DNA of 55,363 bases from positions 1-55,363 of the forward strand of contig JAHIYH010000046.1 in assembly GCA_018814875.1 (NCBI GenBank). The letters are read 5' to 3'. The DNA is from Patescibacteria group bacterium. GTDB lineage: Bacteria; Patescibacteriota; Gracilibacteria; Peribacterales; Peribacteraceae. Position 1 is the stretch's first letter. Each line of letters starts with the position of its first letter. Both the position numbers and the translations under genes were made by a program. Under the pieces are notes generated by a model, which searched no databases, had not been told where the DNA came from, and was given only the letters and a program-made list of their open reading frames with translations. Below, piece after piece: positions 999-12,738 of the stretch.

Positions 999-1090
999 CC
1001 AGCCTTCGCCCAGCCGTCGCTAAAGCTATGGCCGGCGAGCAAGGCTACGGCTGGCAGGCAGTTAACAATTAACAATTAACAGTTGTCGGT
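999..1090. repeat. GC-rich palindromic repeat followed by GTTAACAATT words
   Basis: CCAGCCTTCGCC at 999 and GGCTACGGCTGGCAGG at about 1043-1058 form an imperfect hairpin. GTTAACAATTAACAATTAAC words follow. The stop codon of uvrC, on the opposite strand, lies inside these words. Related GC-rich repeat material occurs at 10790-10995 and inside uvrC at about 3225-3300. It may act as a shared terminator for the two convergent genes. Confidence 0.7.
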
Positions 1091-3481
1091 TAATGTTGCT
1101 TTTAGATTTGCGAATTGGGTGTTATCAAGGATGCAAAGAAGTTCCTCATCCGATGCCTCCCGAACCCCTTCCGCAGATCCAAACCTCTCCAGTAATTCTT
1201 TCTTAGTCTTCTCTCCAATTCCAGGAACATCATCAAGTGCAGAATGAATCGCCGATTTAGTGCCTTTCTTCTCTCTGAGTTTGTTTGCAAATCTGTGAGC
1301 TTCGTTCCTAAGTCGCATAAGTAGGAATTTGGCTTGGGAGTCCTTGGGGAAGGGCGTAGGGCGTTGGGCGTTGGGCGTAAATACCTCTTCTTCACGTTTA
1401 GCTAGTCCAATAACTGGAATATCAAGTTCGAGTTTCTTGAGGACTGAGGCTACAGTTGAGACTTGTCCTTTCCCGCCGTCGATTACGAGGAGGTCGGGTT
1501 TGGTGTTAAGGGATTTATCGTCACGATGCTCTTTAACTGAGTACATCATAATAATCCATCCTTTTGGGACTTTTCCAATCGATTTTGGACCATCGTGAAT
1601 GAATTGAAATCCAATTTCCCCGTAGTATTCTGCCAAGTTAGATCTGAGTAATGCATAAATCTTGCCGTTCTTCTCTCGGCTAAGAATCTTTCTGCAAAGT
1701 AACTGTCCCAGTTTTCTACCGCGATAATCTTTGTGAATCCACAGAGACATAAATTCTTTTGTACCGTCTTTATGTGGAAAAATTCGTGCGCAGCCGATGA
1801 TATGGTCTTCTAAGCGTGCAACAATGAAATCTTTTTCGTGAATATGTTCGAAGCTTAAATTATCATCATTTCTTATGATGTCGCGAATAATAGTTGTCTC
1901 CTTCTTACGCGCTCTTCCTAATTTGATTCCTTCATCTTTCCATTTCTTCTCTTCCTCCTTAATATTTTGCGTCAGGTACTTAAGGCGGCGGCTCAGAACT
2001 TCATTCAATGCTTTGTAATCATCCACTTCGCCATCTTTCAAAGTTCGAATTGTAAAGGAGCGATATTGATCGTTCGCGGCCTTGCCATTTTTGGCAACTA
2101 CCATACTTCCAACTGTCTCAGTTCCACCTAAATGTGAGATATCGTAGCATTCTATGCGCTTTGGTTTTTCGGCGAGTTGTAGCGTTTTTTCCAGCTCCTC
2201 TAGTGCCGTTTCTATATTCGCGGCTGCCGTTTCCCACTTGGTTTCCATTTGCTTCATCTTTTCTTGGGCATTCTTTTCTGCGAGTATGAGTAGTTTCGAT
2301 TTCTTGCCACGTTCAGGGATTCTGAGTTCTACTTTTTTCTTACGTTTATCTTCCAGCCACTTTTGCAGAAGCTTATGCTCCTCAAGTTCTTCACCTACAA
2401 CTATAACGTCAGGAATGTCTGGAGTAGTGGAATAATATTGAGGAATAAATTGTGATAAAGCTTGGGAAACATTTTCCGCTTCACCCGCGAGTGCCAGACT
2501 AAGTTCATCAATTAGTTTACCGCCACGCACTTTAAATAGGACAACCAGAGCTTTTCCATTTACAACTACCATCCCGAAGATGTCGGTATCTTCATCAGAC
2601 GTATCGGAGACTATCTGAAGCTCCATGCGCTCGATGGATTGTAGAGTATTCCGAAAACTTGCGGCTTTCTCGAATTTCTTGTCACTTGCCGCTTGTTGCA
2701 TCTTTTCTGTGAGTTTCTCGATTGCAGTTTTACGCTTGCCCTTAAGAAAATCAGAGATGTTTTCGATAATATTGTTATATTCTTTTTGGGAGAGTGTACC
2801 CTTGCACAAGCCGCAACATTCGCCGATCTGAAACTCCAAGCACGGCTGCGAATCTTTCGTGAAAACTTTAGTAGGATCTTCACCTTTTTTGATTGATCGA
2901 TTGAGAGCTTCCAGAGATTTCTTGCAAGTTTTGTACGGAAAAACAGTATGCAGCATATCCATTGTCTTCCTGATATTGTCTGTGCCAATAAAAGGTCCAA
3001 ATCCTGTCGTGTTTGGTGCGGTGCCTCTGCGTACAATGTCGATGATTGGATATGGTTCGCGAGAAATTTGAACGTACAAATAACTCTTATCGTCTTTCAT
3101 AAGCACGTTGTATTTTGGTTTATTTTCTTTGATGAGATTTGTTTCCAGAATCAGAGCTTCTAGTTCGGAATTCGTTATAGTCACATCAAAGTCCGCGAGT
3201 TGTTTGCGCATGGAGAGTCTCCACGGGCCCGTCTGCGCCATCTGGGCTTCGGCGGACAGGCCCATAGTCTTATCTTCTTTTTGAGTGCCCTCTTTCGCTG
3301 AATCTACGGGGGGCAAGTAGCTCTTCATCCGGCTCCTCAGATTTTTTGCCTTGCCGATGTATAGGATTGCTCCGTTTTTATCTAGCCATCGGTAGATTCC
3401 GGGGCTCTGCGGCGCTTTTGCTATACGCTTGCGAAGCTGAACAAGATGAGGATTTCCCGCTGATTTCTTTGTGGATGGCAT
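1076..3481 (-). CDS. uvrC: Excinuclease ABC subunit C with inserted GNAT domain
   Basis: This is the nuclease subunit of UvrABC nucleotide excision repair, making the 3' and 5' incisions around a lesion. Seen: a GIY-YIG domain (residues 26-58, PGIYRWLD and ILYIGKAKNLRSR), a UVR motif (about 255-290), the RNase H-like C-nuclease (YDISHLGG at 447-453, LLVIDGGKGQ at 664-673, NEAHRFA at 726-732) and a terminal HhH domain (DVPGIGEKTKK). At 801 residues it is about 200 longer than usual. Most of the excess is a GNAT acetyltransferase-like insert at about 525-650 (SLWIHKDYRGRKLGQLL, LAEYYGEIGF) inside the C-nuclease. A second insert at about 59-90 is encoded by a GC-rich genomic repeat, and a small one at 702-711 by word repeats. 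The reading frame stays intact. Start is ATG at 3481. Confidence 0.97.
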   Translation of the reverse strand: MPSTKKSAGNPHLVQLRKRIAKAPQSPGIYRWLDKNGAILYIGKAKNLRSRMKSYLPPVDSAKEGTQKEDKTMGLSAEAQMAQTGPWRLSMRKQLADFDVTITNSELEALILETNLIKENKPKYNVLMKDDKSYLYVQISREPYPIIDIVRRGTAPNTTGFGPFIGTDNIRKTMDMLHTVFPYKTCKKSLEALNRSIKKGEDPTKVFTKDSQPCLEFQIGECCGLCKGTLSQKEYNNIIENISDFLKGKRKTAIEKLTEKMQQAASDKKFEKAASFRNTLQSIERMELQIVSDTSDEDTDIFGMVVVNGKALVVLFKVRGGKLIDELSLALAGEAENVSQALSQFIPQYYSTTPDIPDVIVVGEELEEHKLLQKWLEDKRKKKVELRIPERGKKSKLLILAEKNAQEKMKQMETKWETAAANIETALEELEKTLQLAEKPKRIECYDISHLGGTETVGSMVVAKNGKAANDQYRSFTIRTLKDGEVDDYKALNEVLSRRLKYLTQNIKEEEKKWKDEGIKLGRARKKETTIIRDIIRNDDNLSFEHIHEKDFIVARLEDHIIGCARIFPHKDGTKEFMSLWIHKDYRGRKLGQLLCRKILSREKNGKIYALLRSNLAEYYGEIGFQFIHDGPKSIGKVPKGWIIMMYSVKEHRDDKSLNTKPDLLVIDGGKGQVSTVASVLKKLELDIPVIGLAKREEEVFTPNAQRPTPFPKDSQAKFLLMRLRNEAHRFANKLREKKGTKSAIHSALDDVPGIGEKTKKELLERFGSAEGVREASDEELLCILDNTQFANLKATLTDNC

Positions 3482-6798: not shown

Positions 6799-9174
6799 TT
6801 ACCCCCTCAAAAAATCCGGTATCAGTAATGGCTGCTGCAAATCTGGGATTTGTTCAACTAGCTCCAAGTCTTCCAATGCGATTTTACCTACATACAGTCG
6901 TTTAAGATCTCCACCCTTTTCCAAGAAGCGTTCTATGGATCTAAGTCCGCGGAAGTACACCATGCCCTTGGTAAATCCTCCATTTTCGGATGTATCACTA
7001 AGTCCGCGCTTGATGGTGATAGCTTGTGTTATTGCTTTCCTATCCGAGTATCCGATTTCTTCTTCTAAATATGCACGCGTTTCTGCAAAGGAATGTGTTA
7101 GGCCAAATTCCAGACCCAAGATGTTACGTGGTGCGTTGTAGCGATGTTCGTGATATAGACTTAAGGCTTGGTTTTGGTTGTGAATGGCCAGACCCTCTTG
7201 GGTATCCAAGTAGTTGGCACATCCTCTGCGGAAAAGTGCGAAAGGTTGATGGTCACCATTCTCTGCAGTGAGTACATGCGTCTCGATTTCATGTGCGATC
7301 AGTGACTTAACATGTGACAGTTGAAAGAGTGCTCCTTCGCGAATATAAATATGTTTTCCTCCCACTGTACAATCTGCAACCAGTCGTTTGCGAATAGCCA
7401 CTTCCCATCCATCCAACACATAATGTTCCAATATTTCTTCAAACATTTCTTTGGCACGCTCTGCATTTAAAAGATTATTCTGTGGCGGTGGAAGATCGCA
7501 GGCAATGCGGTGATGCAATGCAGCTTCCGCTGCACGCAAGATAGAAGAGGAAGGTTGGCCGTAAAGATTTTTGGAAGCTTGTGTAAAGGCTTCTGCATTT
7601 CCACGTGCTTTAAGGAGTTCGATACGCATGAGAAGTTCCTTGCGTTTCTTTTCCAGCAATTGTCCAAGTGCGGAATCATCCTGAATAGGTTCCGTAAGTT
7701 TTTTTTGTACTTCTTCTAGACTTAGCTTGAGTTCAGGATAGTAGAAATTTGGGTTGTACTGGCGGTTTTCTTTTATTCGCTCGCGTTCTTCCTGCAGATT
7801 TACAGGTTTTAGGAATTTGATTAACAGAAGCTCCCGATCCATGGTCGCAAGAGTGTTATCTACTGCACGCAGGTCTACTTTTACAGACGATTTCTTAACC
7901 GGTTGCAATGATTCCTTAGATGGATCGATCAAAAAGTCAGCCAGATCACGACGACCAATGATTGCTTGTACATCTTTGGATGTAACTTCCTTTTTTGCCA
8001 CAAGTGTCTGGATTTTTTTGCCACCAAGTGTGAACTTAACGCGATATGTTTGTTCTGTTTTATCTTTTACTTCCGCCGCACCTTTCTCTATAAGTTTTTC
8101 GATAAGTTCAGGGGAGAAGATGGTACGTTCCTTTCCGGCAGCAATACGGCAGGGGACTTCTATGGTTGTTCCTGTACCGGTTACATAAAGAGTCTCGTTA
8201 GTTCCCAATACCGGACGATCATTCTTTGATTCTGATTCCGTCTTTTTTACCTTCTCTCCAAATAGGTCCTGACTCATACGCACCCCTTTTTCTGGTGAGC
8301 TGATTTTTAGACCTTGAACACGTTCCAGTCGTGAGTGTAACGGGGCAAGATTAGCCAGCTGTACCATCAGTCCTGCACGAGCATTCACTTCCAAAAGTGC
8401 AGGTCCCATTTGCTGATCAATAGTCATATCAACCGCCAAATAACCAATATTCGTTATTTTCTGAATGCGTGAACAAATGAGCAGAATCTCGTCCCAATAG
8501 GGGATTTTTATTCCCGATGGAGATCCGCCATGTGGAAGCTCTTTAATAAGAGAATGAAATTGTGCTGCATGAGTTGTCACGCCTTTTGCAATATCGATAC
8601 CAATACCGATACCTCCAAGGTGCACGTTACCTTTTCCTTCACTTATCTTTGTTGGAACCCTGAGCATCGCCATCACTGGGACCAGATTGAAAACGATTAC
8701 ACGAATATCGGGCAGACCTGCTGGGCGGAAGCGCGCGAAGCAATCATGCTGAATGAGAATCTGTTCGAAGAATGCAGTGTCTAGGCGGCCGCCAAGAGAA
8801 AATTTTCCGTCCAAAATATCTTCGATGTGTTCTTCTAATTCACGATTCGAGATTGGATATTTTCCCTGCTTAAGAAAATGTCCTTCTTTATTTCGCCCTT
8901 TTAGAACTATGATTCCTTCTCCTCCAAATCCGCAATTTGGTTTTAGTACACATTCATTGGGGAGCTGCTTGAAGTCGAAAGATCTAAGTTGCTGTCTTGT
9001 TTCAATACGTGCAAAAATTTTAGCTGCTGGGATTCCACGGGTTGCTAGGTATGCTTTAGTTTTAAGTTTGTCGTCGGCCAACGCTGTCGCCTTCTTTGGA
9101 TTAAATGGCTTCACATAGAGAAGATTGCGGGCGTTGATTCCGAGAATGCCTGAGTTAAGGAATTGTTTGAACAT
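6799..9174 (-). CDS. ATP-grasp ligase - RimB-like domain - DUF1704 metalloprotease fusion
   Basis: A 791-residue three-part protein. Residues 1-310 are an ATP-grasp domain of the alpha-L-glutamate-ligase-like/sugar-transfer group (ECVLKPNCGFGGEGIIVL, DIRVIVFNLVPVMAMLRVP, PALLEVNARAGL), expected to join a carboxylate to an amine. Residues about 330-425 resemble the retropepsin-like RimB/PF05618 domain (YRVKFTLGGKK, IIGRRDLADFLIDPSK), but the catalytic Asp-Thr-Gly is replaced (CRIAAGKER), so it is probably a binding domain. Residues about 470-780 are DUF1704, the MATCAP-type zincin family, with LIAHEIETHVLT (HExxxH) and TQEGLAI as the likely third ligand. The downstream minus-strand neighbour at 9237 is the 7TM partner typical of this ligase group. 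Substrate unknown. Confidence 0.85.
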   Translation of the reverse strand: MFKQFLNSGILGINARNLLYVKPFNPKKATALADDKLKTKAYLATRGIPAAKIFARIETRQQLRSFDFKQLPNECVLKPNCGFGGEGIIVLKGRNKEGHFLKQGKYPISNRELEEHIEDILDGKFSLGGRLDTAFFEQILIQHDCFARFRPAGLPDIRVIVFNLVPVMAMLRVPTKISEGKGNVHLGGIGIGIDIAKGVTTHAAQFHSLIKELPHGGSPSGIKIPYWDEILLICSRIQKITNIGYLAVDMTIDQQMGPALLEVNARAGLMVQLANLAPLHSRLERVQGLKISSPEKGVRMSQDLFGEKVKKTESESKNDRPVLGTNETLYVTGTGTTIEVPCRIAAGKERTIFSPELIEKLIEKGAAEVKDKTEQTYRVKFTLGGKKIQTLVAKKEVTSKDVQAIIGRRDLADFLIDPSKESLQPVKKSSVKVDLRAVDNTLATMDRELLLIKFLKPVNLQEERERIKENRQYNPNFYYPELKLSLEEVQKKLTEPIQDDSALGQLLEKKRKELLMRIELLKARGNAEAFTQASKNLYGQPSSSILRAAEAALHHRIACDLPPPQNNLLNAERAKEMFEEILEHYVLDGWEVAIRKRLVADCTVGGKHIYIREGALFQLSHVKSLIAHEIETHVLTAENGDHQPFALFRRGCANYLDTQEGLAIHNQNQALSLYHEHRYNAPRNILGLEFGLTHSFAETRAYLEEEIGYSDRKAITQAITIKRGLSDTSENGGFTKGMVYFRGLRSIERFLEKGGDLKRLYVGKIALEDLELVEQIPDLQQPLLIPDFLRG

Positions 9175-9175
9175 A

Positions 9176-9238
9176 GAAAGGGCTGGGGCTTGGGCTGGGG
9201 CTTGGGCATGAGCTAATCCTAGCCCTAGCCCGAATCCT
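9176..9238. repeat. GGGGCTTGGGCT / AGCCCTAGCCC inverted words
   Basis: GGGCTGGGGCTTGGGCTGGGG on one side and CCTAGCCCTAGCCCGAATCC on the other fold back as an imperfect hairpin between two minus-strand genes. The same word family reappears at 11342-11427 and inside the nuclease gene at about 17760-17797. Confidence 0.8.
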
Positions 9239-10730
9239 ATTCTTCCTGTAAGTGACTAAACACCTCACGGAATCTAAAGTATTCAACCAACCTTAATCCT
9301 GTCCATCTTCCCAATCCGATGTCTGCCAAGATAGTAAGGAGGATGATTTCGGGATACGCGAGGAGAACGGATTGCAGTGCTGCCCACGAAACTATGAAGA
9401 CACAAATAAGTGCAGCAAGAATAGTTTCTCCAATTCCAATTACAGCACTCCAGAGTCCTTCCTCAGTTTTTACTGCAAGGAAACTTTCGGACAGTGTGGA
9501 CATGATAAGTAGAATGAAGATCGTGTCACGTCCAAAAGTGATATCTAATGATGCGCCGATTCCAAGTAATAGCAGAAGTGTGATACTCACGACGGTTAAC
9601 ATGATTGCTACCTTTGGAATGTATAACAGTCGCCAACGGCGCAGCAGTGCACGTGTTGCATAGCTTGTGATCAAAATGAACAGTAAGAATGCCAGCCCCA
9701 ACGTCCATCCTAGTGACAAGAAGCTCAATGCCACCACAGAAGGGGTATAAAGTCCAAAAGTCGTCACACCAATCACTTGCTTAAGGAAGGCCAAAATCAT
9801 AGCAATGATCGGTAGAGTCAAAAGCAGTATAACAATCTGACTAGATACACCATGCGTCAGCATAAAGTTAACAAGAGAGGAGAGTAGATTCCACGGACGT
9901 GTCACGGTCGTCGATTCATCGACAACAATAAAATCAATATCGCGTTGTTCAATATCTGTAAGGAATGTTTCGGTATCTATTGCAGAAATCAGAGGGTTAA
10001 TAGCTTCTTTGCGTGTAATCACAATGCGATCAGGTTTGAGTACAGAAAAAGGTCCGCGCGCAGTCCGTGCGAGTGTGTTCAAACTACTATCTGTAATCAC
10101 CACAATATTTTGACTTTCGATTCCTGCCAGTCTTGTCGCGTCAGCTTCTGCAACTCGCATAAGTGCCTGAAGTCCGGTGATACCATCTGTCCACAAAATG
10201 ATTGTTTGTGAACCAGGGAGTGCGTTGCTCTGTTCCGATATTGTAGTGAAGAGTGCTTCTTCTGTGCTTACAGGAAGTGTGAGACCTCCGATGGGTTGAA
10301 CAATGCGCAAATACACGCCTTCGCTTGCAGCTGTTTGTTGGTGAATTTGAAGTTTCTCGCGTGAAACAGAACTATCGGCAACCAGTGCAATTTTGCGTTC
10401 ATACACTGTAATCATGCGTTGTGTTTCGGAATCATGTACCTCTCCATCGATCGTTGTTCGGATCGCTAGTCGTACAACAATCGCATCCACTGTCTCGGGT
10501 GTGTATACCACCTCTACTGTGCGGCTGATAGATTGAGAAATTCCCTCCACGTACCAGCGATACTCCGTGTCTTCCCCCAGTCCTTTACTGGATGAAGCAT
10601 CCAACACAAGTGTACGTCCGACCATTATTTCTTCGGGTCCGGAGATAATAGGGGCCAGAGGTTCGGTGCCCTGAGCGAGTGCTACTGTGGCGCTTGTAAG
10701 CAGTGCAATAGTGAAAGTTAGATAACGCAT
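9237..10730 (-). CDS. 7TM protein of the inactive-transglutaminase (UUP1-like) family
   Basis: Starting at the ATG at 10730, the protein begins with a clear signal peptide (MRYLTFTIALLTSATVALAQG). An Ig/PKD-like module (about 30-115) and an extracytoplasmic alpha/beta region (about 120-290) follow. The C-terminal seven-helix domain (about 305-480) contains VIGVTTFGLYTPSVVALSF, a hallmark of the 7TM_transglut family. Such proteins are known to sit next to ATP-grasp amidoligase-like genes, exactly as here, and may present or process the peptide made by the ligase at the membrane. The open frame could begin 24 codons earlier, but the signal peptide fixes the start. Confidence 0.8.
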   Translation of the reverse strand: MRYLTFTIALLTSATVALAQGTEPLAPIISGPEEIMVGRTLVLDASSSKGLGEDTEYRWYVEGISQSISRTVEVVYTPETVDAIVVRLAIRTTIDGEVHDSETQRMITVYERKIALVADSSVSREKLQIHQQTAASEGVYLRIVQPIGGLTLPVSTEEALFTTISEQSNALPGSQTIILWTDGITGLQALMRVAEADATRLAGIESQNIVVITDSSLNTLARTARGPFSVLKPDRIVITRKEAINPLISAIDTETFLTDIEQRDIDFIVVDESTTVTRPWNLLSSLVNFMLTHGVSSQIVILLLTLPIIAMILAFLKQVIGVTTFGLYTPSVVALSFLSLGWTLGLAFLLFILITSYATRALLRRWRLLYIPKVAIMLTVVSITLLLLLGIGASLDITFGRDTIFILLIMSTLSESFLAVKTEEGLWSAVIGIGETILAALICVFIVSWAALQSVLLAYPEIILLTILADIGLGRWTGLRLVEYFRFREVFSHLQEE

Positions 10731-10789
10731 ATTGGATGTAGTGTATACCATTTTCACTGTCTGAACTGCAGATTTTTGCCCCACCCCTA

Positions 10790-10995
10790 ACCACTCCCCC
10801 ACCCACCTTCGCCTCTGGGCTTCGGATGGGCAGGCAAGGGGAGGGGAACTCTGTTAAAGGAGAATAAGGATTTTTATTTCAATAACGAAGCTCCCCTTCC
10901 TCATGCCTGCCGCGCCGTAGCCTTGGCGAAGGCTGGTGGAGGAAGGGGTCGCCTGTCCACCGTAGCCAAAAGGCGTAGGCGGAGGGGATGGAGGT
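10790..10995. repeat. GC-rich palindromic repeat cluster
   Basis: The 277-bp gap between HPF and the 7TM gene holds no gene. It contains ACCTTCGCCTCTGGGCTTCGG, GGCAAGGGGAGGGGAAC and, further on, CTCCCCTTCCTCATGCCTGCC, GCGCCGTAGCCTTGGCGAAGG and CTGTCCACCGTAGCC. These pair with each other in inverted orientation and resemble the repeats at 999-1060 and inside uvrC. They look like a dispersed intergenic element of this genome. Confidence 0.7.
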
Positions 10996-11007
10996 TAAGA
11001 CAGCCAC

Positions 11008-11340
11008 CTAACTCACCACCGCTCGCTTTCGCTCCACATTCAGCTCCTTATATTCATTAATCTGTGGCCTGAGTTTTTCCAAACATCGATCAATGGCTAT
11101 CATTGGATCAGGACGGCGCGATTCAGCACGGAGTGTCTTTTTAGGGAGCTTTATTGTTACTGTCACCTTCATTTGATCCTGCCCCTTTTTGGTACTTCGA
11201 TTGTTGGCTTCTACTCTTATTGCAGAGCTCTCATCTTTGATTCTTTTGCAGTACGTTGCCAATTTTCCCAGTTTTTTAGCAATTTGTATAAGCTGGCGAT
11301 CGGAGAACTCGAAGCCTTTTTCGAAGTGTTGGATGTTCAT
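11008..11340 (-). CDS. HPF/RaiA-like ribosome hibernation factor
   Basis: A 110-residue protein matching the short HPF/sigma-54 modulation fold: an N-terminal strand MNIQHFEKGFEFSDRQLIQIAKKLGKL, an IRVEAN/KVTVTIKLP sheet and a helix MIAIDRCLEKLRPQINEYKE. Family members bind the 30S A/P sites and dimerise or silence ribosomes in stationary phase. No long C-terminal dimerisation domain is present. Start is ATG at 11340; a word-repeat array lies immediately upstream. Confidence 0.8.
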   Translation of the reverse strand: MNIQHFEKGFEFSDRQLIQIAKKLGKLATYCKRIKDESSAIRVEANNRSTKKGQDQMKVTVTIKLPKKTLRAESRRPDPMIAIDRCLEKLRPQINEYKELNVERKRAVVS

Positions 11341-11341
11341 A

Positions 11342-11427
11342 AGACTAGGGGTTAGGGGATAGGGCTGGGGATAGGGCTGGGGATAGGGCTGGGGCTAGGG
11401 CTGGGGCTGGGGCTGGGGCTCTGGGGT
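11342..11427. repeat. AGGGCTGGGG tandem word array
   Basis: About eight head-to-tail copies of a GGGCTGGGGATA/GGGCTGGGGCTA-type word lie between the divergent HPF gene and the four-gene operon. The copies differ at one or two bases, as expected from slippage followed by drift. It is strongly G-rich on the plus strand, so G-quadruplex formation is possible. Confidence 0.85.
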
Positions 11428-11459
11428 TAGATTAACACGAAAATGGGATGAGTAGGAGG

Positions 11460-11488
11460 TTGTTAAAATTGGGGGTTTTTGCTATAAT
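11460..11488 (+). promoter_or_regulatory. Sigma70-type promoter of the four-gene operon
   Basis: TTGTTA at 11460-11465 and a perfect TATAAT at 11483-11488 are separated by 17 bp. Transcription would start near 11495, about 20 nt before the ATG at 11515. No Shine-Dalgarno sequence is present in the short leader. Confidence 0.75.
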
Positions 11489-11514
11489 ATAAGAGAAATT
11501 ACACATAAACATAT

Positions 11515-11757
11515 ATGGATATTCCAAAGCTAATTAAGCGGGTGAAAGCTAGCCGTCTCCTATCGGAGAAAGAGCAGAAATATTGGCTAAATAAGATGGA
11601 AACGATGAATGATAAAGACCTTGTAGAGCTTGATGGCATTTTGGAATATGCAGAGAAGATTGACTGGGAAGAAGCAATTCCTAAGTACGAAAAAGCAGTG
11701 AAAGCAGCAGGTGAGGTCTATACGAACACGCTTACAAAACTTCAAGTCGCCACATAA
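11515..11757 (+). CDS. Small helical protein, first gene of unknown operon
   Basis: An 80-residue, charged, all-helical protein (KLIKRVKASRLLSEKEQKYW, KMETMNDKDLVELDGILEYAE) without signal or membrane segment. No family recognised. It directly follows the strong promoter at 11460 and is 15 nt ahead of the next gene on the same strand, so it probably leads a four-gene operon. Its pattern (two helix-loop-helix units) would suit an adaptor or regulatory subunit, but that is only inference. Confidence 0.75.
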   Translation: MDIPKLIKRVKASRLLSEKEQKYWLNKMETMNDKDLVELDGILEYAEKIDWEEAIPKYEKAVKAAGEVYTNTLTKLQVAT

Positions 11758-11772
11758 TTCTCCCAATTTATT

Positions 11773-12738
11773 ATGCCTACCAATCACATCGAATCCTTCG
11801 GCGACAAGAAGAAAAAGATTGTCGAGGAACTTAAAGGTTTAAAAAAAGAGATCGAAGACTATTCAACTGCGCAAGCTATGACTGATCCGGAGATCGCAGC
11901 ACTAACTGATGCTCAGAAGACAGAAAAAGTTAATAAGCTAAATGCTAAGGTCGCGGAACTTAAGGCCAAGCTTGAGCAGGATGTAGTTCGCTGGAAGGAA
12001 ACACTAGGTACAGATAATGCTCCTGCACTGGAAGCAATCGATACTTTCTGGCAAGAGATGCAAGAGAAGATTGATGGTATCAATAAAACAGAAATTGGAG
12101 GATTGCTTACCGGCTTAGAGGAATTAAGACAGAGAGTAGAAGCAGCAGAAACTAACACGGTCGCTCCAGATGAAGATACAACTGCAGAAGAAATTATGGA
12201 GGCTGACAAAGTACCAACAGTCAAAGACATTATTGTAGAAATGGAAGAAGAGGAGCAGACAGGATTTGCTGGAATGATCGCCAAGTTTTCCAAGATGGCA
12301 AAGCCTCTTATGAAAATACTATCTGGTCTGATGATTGAATTTAAAAAGATTAGTTTGAGCATGAATCCTTTTGGAAGTGAGGCTAGCAAGCAACAGGCTC
12401 GTGCAGAATTAGAAAAGATGCAGGAAGCATACGAAAGCAACTACGGAACGGATGACTTGCGTGATCTATTCACTGCACAAGCAAAGGAGCTTGGATTCGA
12501 GAAGCTGGTCTTTAAACCGGGTTTGTTTGATGGCAAAGCTGTGACAAGTTTTAACCAAAAATATCTCGCTTACAGAGATATAGATCCCAGTAAGACAAAA
12601 GAGCAATACATTAAGGAGCTTCTGACAGAGTATGTTAAAGATGATGCAGTCGTGACCGAGACTGCTTTGGCGGGGGAAGAACATTTTATTACGATGAAAG
12701 GATTTATGGAGGGTAAGAAGCCACAGGTTGTTGCATAA
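11773..12738 (+). CDS. Coiled-coil protein of unknown function
   Basis: This 321-residue acidic protein has a long N-terminal coiled coil (about residues 8-75, KKKIVEELKGLKKEIEDYS) and a second helical stretch at 85-125. An amphipathic/hydrophobic patch at about 170-200 (FAGMIAKFSKMAKPLMKILSG) may touch a membrane, followed by a folded C-terminal region. No known family recognised. It is the second gene of the operon; the ATG at 11773 has no Shine-Dalgarno sequence. It probably acts with the large membrane-associated protein encoded downstream. Confidence 0.8.
   Translation: MPTNHIESFGDKKKKIVEELKGLKKEIEDYSTAQAMTDPEIAALTDAQKTEKVNKLNAKVAELKAKLEQDVVRWKETLGTDNAPALEAIDTFWQEMQEKIDGINKTEIGGLLTGLEELRQRVEAAETNTVAPDEDTTAEEIMEADKVPTVKDIIVEMEEEEQTGFAGMIAKFSKMAKPLMKILSGLMIEFKKISLSMNPFGSEASKQQARAELEKMQEAYESNYGTDDLRDLFTAQAKELGFEKLVFKPGLFDGKAVTSFNQKYLAYRDIDPSKTKEQYIKELLTEYVKDDAVVTETALAGEEHFITMKGFMEGKKPQVVA

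Follow-up and report, generated by a model that had tools for sequence, protein, structure and literature searches.

The bacterial ligase RimK attaches glutamates at a C-terminal carboxylate and synthesizes polyglutamate, which the retropepsin RimB cuts; RimB also stimulates RimK through direct binding (PMC11957791). RloABC of Pseudomonas aeruginosa brings together in one pathway the ATP-grasp ligase RloC, the seven-transmembrane (7TM) protein RloB, and RloA, a retropepsin related to RimB. RloA carries a signal peptide and cleaves polyglutamate in vitro; the loss of the RloA proteases is rescued when RloB or RloC is lost as well (PMC12239564), suggesting that RloB and RloC jointly produce or supply a material in need of trimming by RloA. 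The MATCAP enzymes take C-terminal tyrosine and glutamate off tubulin tails, and deglutamylate (PMC10499314). Here, we analyzed a 55,363-nucleotide stretch of Patescibacterial DNA (contig JAHIYH010000046.1; the window, in its full length) in which a single protein joins an ATP-grasp ligase, a degenerate retropepsin and a MATCAP domain. Its gene lies directly downstream of a 7TM_transglut membrane protein gene, both on the minus strand. We see about an even chance (probability about 0.5) that this fusion serves an RloABC/RimBK-like amidoligase system as its write-and-erase enzyme in the cytoplasm.

As in RloABC, the locus combines an ATP-grasp ligase, a 7TM protein and an RloA-family retropepsin; this characterized relative was absent from an earlier annotation made from the letters of the window (hereafter the initial annotation). 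However, the retropepsin is here fused behind the ligase, lacks a signal peptide and is inactivated, whereas RloA is separate and secreted. A MATCAP domain has been added, and the partner, unlike RloB, has PKD and alpha/beta domains, and no transglutaminase could be detected in it. A polyglutamate ligase and a retropepsin are similarly paired in RimK-RimB and in the RimBK hybrids (PMC11957791), in the hybrids within one protein. In RimBK the retropepsin is N-terminal and active, whereas that of the fusion follows the ligase and lacks DTG; RimBK also has neither the metallocarboxypeptidase behind the retropepsin nor the 7TM partner. The last domain of the fusion belongs to the same metallocarboxypeptidase family as the MATCAP/TMCP tubulin carboxypeptidases (PMC10499314; 7z5g, 7z6s). 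An independent ligase-MATCAP operon in Rhizobiales encodes an N-formylglutamate amidohydrolase (FGase), a MATCAP-family QEGLA protein and a glutathione-synthase-like ATP-grasp ligase; unlike the fusion, these are separate genes, and no 7TM or retropepsin gene is present in the neighborhood shown. The ligase-retropepsin pairing, the 7TM partner, the ligase-retropepsin hybrids and the placing of MATCAP beside an ATP-grasp ligase are thus of known kinds. In the literature that we searched, whose coverage did not extend to the review of Iyer et al. (2009), we found no account of ATP-grasp and MATCAP joined in one chain and combined with a retropepsin that has decayed and a 7TM partner that bears a PKD domain. 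Because the curated cut-offs for RloC, RloB and QEGLA are not reached, we regard the system as a variant of RloABC and not as a member.

Both genes lie where the initial annotation had placed them, and the three domains it had proposed for the first one were recovered, by PF14397, by PF08014 and by an hhalign probability of 99.1% for the retropepsin. The matches of fusion and partner are far beyond chance. A sugar-transfer-associated/RimK-related ATP-grasp match in Pfam and NCBIfam covers residues 16–287. The RloC-type model TIGR02291 scores 249 bits against a curated cut-off of 314.2, that is, the protein is related to this family but outside its limit. In an AlphaFold model of the full-length fusion (mean pLDDT 86.6, pTM 0.52), the ligase part resembles ArgX (3vpb, Z 18.3) and RimK (5zct, Z 17.5). 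The presumed metal-site residues D249, E262 and N264 are invariant in all 24 fusions of our conservation sample, which share 28–72% identity with the window protein. Judged from profiles and the predicted structure, the ligase domain is of the RimK/RloC type, with an apparent ATP-grasp metal site and a RimK-like fold.

The MATCAP domain was matched over residues 468–776 by PF08014, at 175.6 bits and thus above the curated Pfam cut-off of 27, and over residues 439–789 by the QEGLA model TIGR02421, at 199.5 bits compared to a cut-off of 338.65, which makes the domain a relative and not an equivalog. The fusion model superimposes on human MATCAP (7z5g) over 280 residues (Z 25.6, rmsd 2.6). H628, E629, H633 and E660 are invariant in the same 24 fusions, and conservation of the HExxxH motif, on which the initial annotation had made its proposal depend, extends to all 65 fusion open reading frames (ORFs) in a second, overlapping survey of named genomes. 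In the papers that we searched, we came across no function of bacterial MATCAP/DUF1704 proteins.

The fusion's middle domain alone gave no family match. However, unfused relatives from the same phylum share its N-terminal architecture, an ATP-grasp domain followed by ~120–170 residues, and this second part matches PF05618, the RimB/RloA family, in several cases above the cut-off. A profile built mostly from unfused middle domains matches the RloA crystal structures 9g58/9g59 (E ~5e-6), Legionella 2pma and DDI1. The alignment of fused with unfused middle domains has the hhalign probability given above and sets AAGK of the window protein opposite DTGA. Since its unfused homologues match PF05618 and the RloA structures and align with it in this way, the middle domain descends, by sequence profiles, from RimB/RloA retropepsins, as the initial annotation had supposed. 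Retropepsin structures were absent from the fold-search lists for the full model, which matches to the other two domains filled.

Loss of the catalytic triad, also claimed in the initial annotation, proved general: DTGA occurs in none of the 65 fusions. In a neighborhood survey of 75 loci, an intact DTGA-type motif was found in 0 of 16 fused proteins, whereas D(T/S)G is kept in 57 of 59 unfused ATP-grasp-retropepsin proteins. The two unfused exceptions carry NTG (L047 and L048), and both have MATCAP as the next gene. All retropepsin decay that we saw was in proteins with MATCAP in the same chain or encoded by the adjoining gene. This decay is graded, since some deeper fusions still have the aspartate in changed contexts (DTGK, DSGK, DTSR). 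The flap segment S..G...RP is present in most unfused relatives but missing from the aligned fusions. The host genome (1.42 Mb, 98.8% complete) encodes a single MATCAP protein and gave no PF05618 match, and hence no separate secreted RloA is found there.

Pairing with the 7TM protein, another element of the initial annotation, is conserved: the 7TM gene is a same-strand neighbor in 71 of the 75 loci and lies at most 300 bases upstream of the fusion in 51 of the 65 named-genome cases. The partner was less accurately described as of an inactive-transglutaminase type. Its 7TM part fits PF14402, but its exported part does not fit that description and consists of a PKD-like and an alpha/beta domain. 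In the partner model, a signal helix is followed by these two domains and then by the membrane helices. A profile of the partner family matches collagenase PKD domains; a fold search with the exported alpha/beta domain gave no convincing match, and no transglutaminase was found by family searches, in the model, or by fold and profile comparison. The RloB model NF052267 scores 48.9 bits against a cut-off of 900 and covers the 7TM part only. The partner ORF is counted here from an ATG, and its reading frame is open up to a GTG at position 10802.

Table 1. Features of the fusion gene and its membrane partner in the window (aa, amino acids of the respective protein).
Feature	Position	Strand	Evidence
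791-aa fusion protein: ATP-grasp, degenerate retropepsin, MATCAP	6799..9174	(-)	
ATP-grasp domain, aa 9-291	8302..9150	(-)	PF14397 E 5e-59, TIGR02291 E 5e-74, fold matches
Degenerate RimB/RloA-type retropepsin domain, aa 318-423	7906..8223	(-)	hhalign 99.1% to unfused relatives
A345-A346-G347-K348 at catalytic DTGA position	8131..8142	(-)	alignment
MATCAP/DUF1704 metallocarboxypeptidase domain, aa 445-790	6805..7842	(-)	PF08014 E 2e-51, TIGR02421 E 9e-59, fold
HExxxH metal-binding motif, HEIETH, aa 628-633	7276..7293	(-)	aligned with human MATCAP HEIGTH
EGLA motif (QEGLA) with presumed third metal ligand E660	7186..7197	(-)	EEGLA in human MATCAP
497-aa membrane partner: signal peptide, PKD-like, exported alpha/beta, 7TM region	9237..10730	(-)	PF14402 E 3e-24, model
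PKD-like domain, partner aa 22-112	10395..10667	(-)	ColG PKD 4aqo Z 12.3; family profile
Exported alpha/beta domain, partner aa 114-290	9861..10391	(-)	secondary structure of model
7TM_transglut membrane region, partner aa 297-496	9243..9842	(-)	PF14402 match aa 286-490

The fusion is kept across Peribacteria/Gracilibacteria and some other Patescibacteria. Nearly all of the best 80 named loci carry Patescibacteria names or no name; among them, Candidatus Peribacter and other Peribacteria/Peregrinibacteria are the closest named relatives, and the host is a Peribacter-like Patescibacterium. The one locus that bears a Nitrospirae label (L139), a contig of 3.5 kb from a 0.8 Mb genome, has the first two domains only, and we attribute the label to a labeling or binning problem. 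The common Patescibacterial unit is a 7TM gene followed by an ATP-grasp-retropepsin gene. In five loci (L045, L046, L047, L048 and L060), this unit is directly followed by a third gene, which encodes MATCAP on its own. On a tree of the ligase, the fused label requires two changes and the DTG label three. In a close relative (L192, G106:C4), a 578-aa ligase-retropepsin ORF is accompanied by a MATCAP ORF in another frame, which is either an assembly frameshift or a real split. Some fusions without a detected 7TM gene have a 160-aa gene upstream, which by eye looks LeuD-like and was set aside as unrelated.

Two further observations concern the surroundings of related loci. In L063, L062, L057, L066 and L044, one to three more RimK-like or similar ATP-grasp ligases lie downstream of the pair, which points to multi-step peptide assembly there. 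In L045, the separate MATCAP gene is directly followed by a gene for a 612-aa protein with an FGase domain (10604–12442), echoing the Rhizobiales operon.

From the known activities of RimK/RimB, RloABC and MATCAP, writing and erasing of a tail or polymer appears the most likely role. At the expense of ATP, the ATP-grasp domain would probably extend a peptide, a protein tail or a homopolymer at its C-terminal carboxylate, the added amino acids being most likely acidic (glutamate, for example), and the MATCAP domain would probably strip C-terminal residues off the same chain and thereby set its length. We postulate an ancestor whose ligase carried a working retropepsin behind it; in lineages with the fusion, trimming would have passed to the metallocarboxypeptidase, and both the catalytic motif and the flap segment of the retropepsin would have been lost. 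By analogy with the stimulation of RimK by RimB, the dead remnant might have been retained in a scaffolding or regulatory role for the ligase. As with RloB, the probable task of the 7TM partner is to anchor the enzyme at the membrane or to pass the product outside, where the PKD and alpha/beta domains of the partner would be exposed. Occurrence in one chain here and as consecutive separate genes in relatives constitutes Rosetta-stone evidence for writing and erasing. The make-and-trim cycle suggested in the initial annotation fits the comparative evidence from sequences, because ligase-retropepsin and MATCAP genes adjoin in relatives and fuse, and because the retropepsin decays only with MATCAP fused or adjacent.

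Several points weigh against this reading. The independent lineages are few, and a single origin of the fusion is not rejected (p-AU 0.10). The retropepsin motif is intact beside an adjacent MATCAP in L045, L046, L049 and L060; with four sampled loci of this kind, protease replacement is not automatic. As there are only three decay lineages, the link between decay and MATCAP is suggestive and not statistically proven. Given the pTM of 0.52, the relative placing of the domains in the fusion model is uninformative. Ribosomal protein S6 was considered as a substrate and rejected, as the host S6 has no glutamate tail. Lastly, MATCAP could process the ligase product once instead of reversing ligation.

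This last point leads to an alternative that we consider unlikely but the best of those weighed, namely maturation without a cycle: the ATP-grasp domain would build a small peptide or modify a scaffold, and MATCAP would act a single time, taking off a tail or leader so that the finished product is set free, in the manner of multi-ligase peptide pathways. The relatives with additional ligases by the pair or with FGase beside MATCAP would suit such a scheme, as would the Rhizobiales MATCAP operon with its own FGase and glutathione-synthase-like ligase. The window genome, however, has no extra ligase in the neighborhood and one weak RimK match elsewhere, and no precursor peptide gene was seen beside the pair.

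Less probable still, the protein might be a divergent RloC with extra domains, in which the fused MATCAP serves an unrelated proteolytic role and co-translation ensures nothing beyond co-expression. Loci such as L050, L171 and L172 agree with this, since their ligase and 7TM genes are still neighbors but MATCAP is encoded several kilobases off on the other strand; on the other hand, a wide spread of lineages maintains the fusion, and retropepsin decay was met only with MATCAP in the same chain or the next gene. That MATCAP is a non-catalytic module, for example one that binds a C-terminal tail, is very improbable: nothing favors it directly, although the retropepsin of the same chain demonstrates that catalytic domains can decay here, and it disagrees with the invariant H628, E629, H633 and E660 and with a fold that matches active human MATCAP.

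Eukaryotic tubulin tyrosine ligase (TTL) has an ATP-grasp fold and opposes MATCAP on one C-terminal tail. A write-and-erase fusion would be a bacterial one-molecule counterpart of this TTL/MATCAP cycle on tubulin. The likeness to tubulin tyrosination and detyrosination would nonetheless be a functional analogy only: the fusion is bacterial, has both predicted activities in one chain, involves no tubulin, and its ATP-grasp domain is of the RimK/RloC and not the TTL type. As to origin, we tentatively suggest, while doubting it more than the enzymatic role itself, that a protease swap gave rise, in Patescibacteria, to an enzyme able to write and erase amino-acid tails within one chain: MATCAP would have become fused to a RimK-type ligase and displaced its aspartic protease, which then became a pseudoprotease. 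If so, one protease class would have replaced another within a pathway with the old domain kept as a pseudoenzyme, and the swap would point to a bacterial source for the pairing of the ATP-grasp ligase and MATCAP families. The conserved fusion ties bacterial MATCAP to an RloABC-type ligase and offers a testable pair, in which one half would make the tail and the other remove it.

The fusion gene is directly followed on the same strand by a gene for a 23S rRNA-intervening-sequence protein (PF05635; 6302–6727, minus strand). Directly upstream of the 7TM gene is a short S30AE/HPF-like ribosome hibernation factor gene (11008–11340, minus strand), and this order recurs in Peribacteria (5 of 42 scored loci, and also L033 and L034). 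Sites found in a promoter scan were no commoner than in shuffles. Elsewhere in the window (1076–3481, minus strand), we noted a UvrC with a GNAT acetyltransferase domain (aa ~533–628) inside its RNase H-like endonuclease domain, with UvrC matches on both sides of the insertion.

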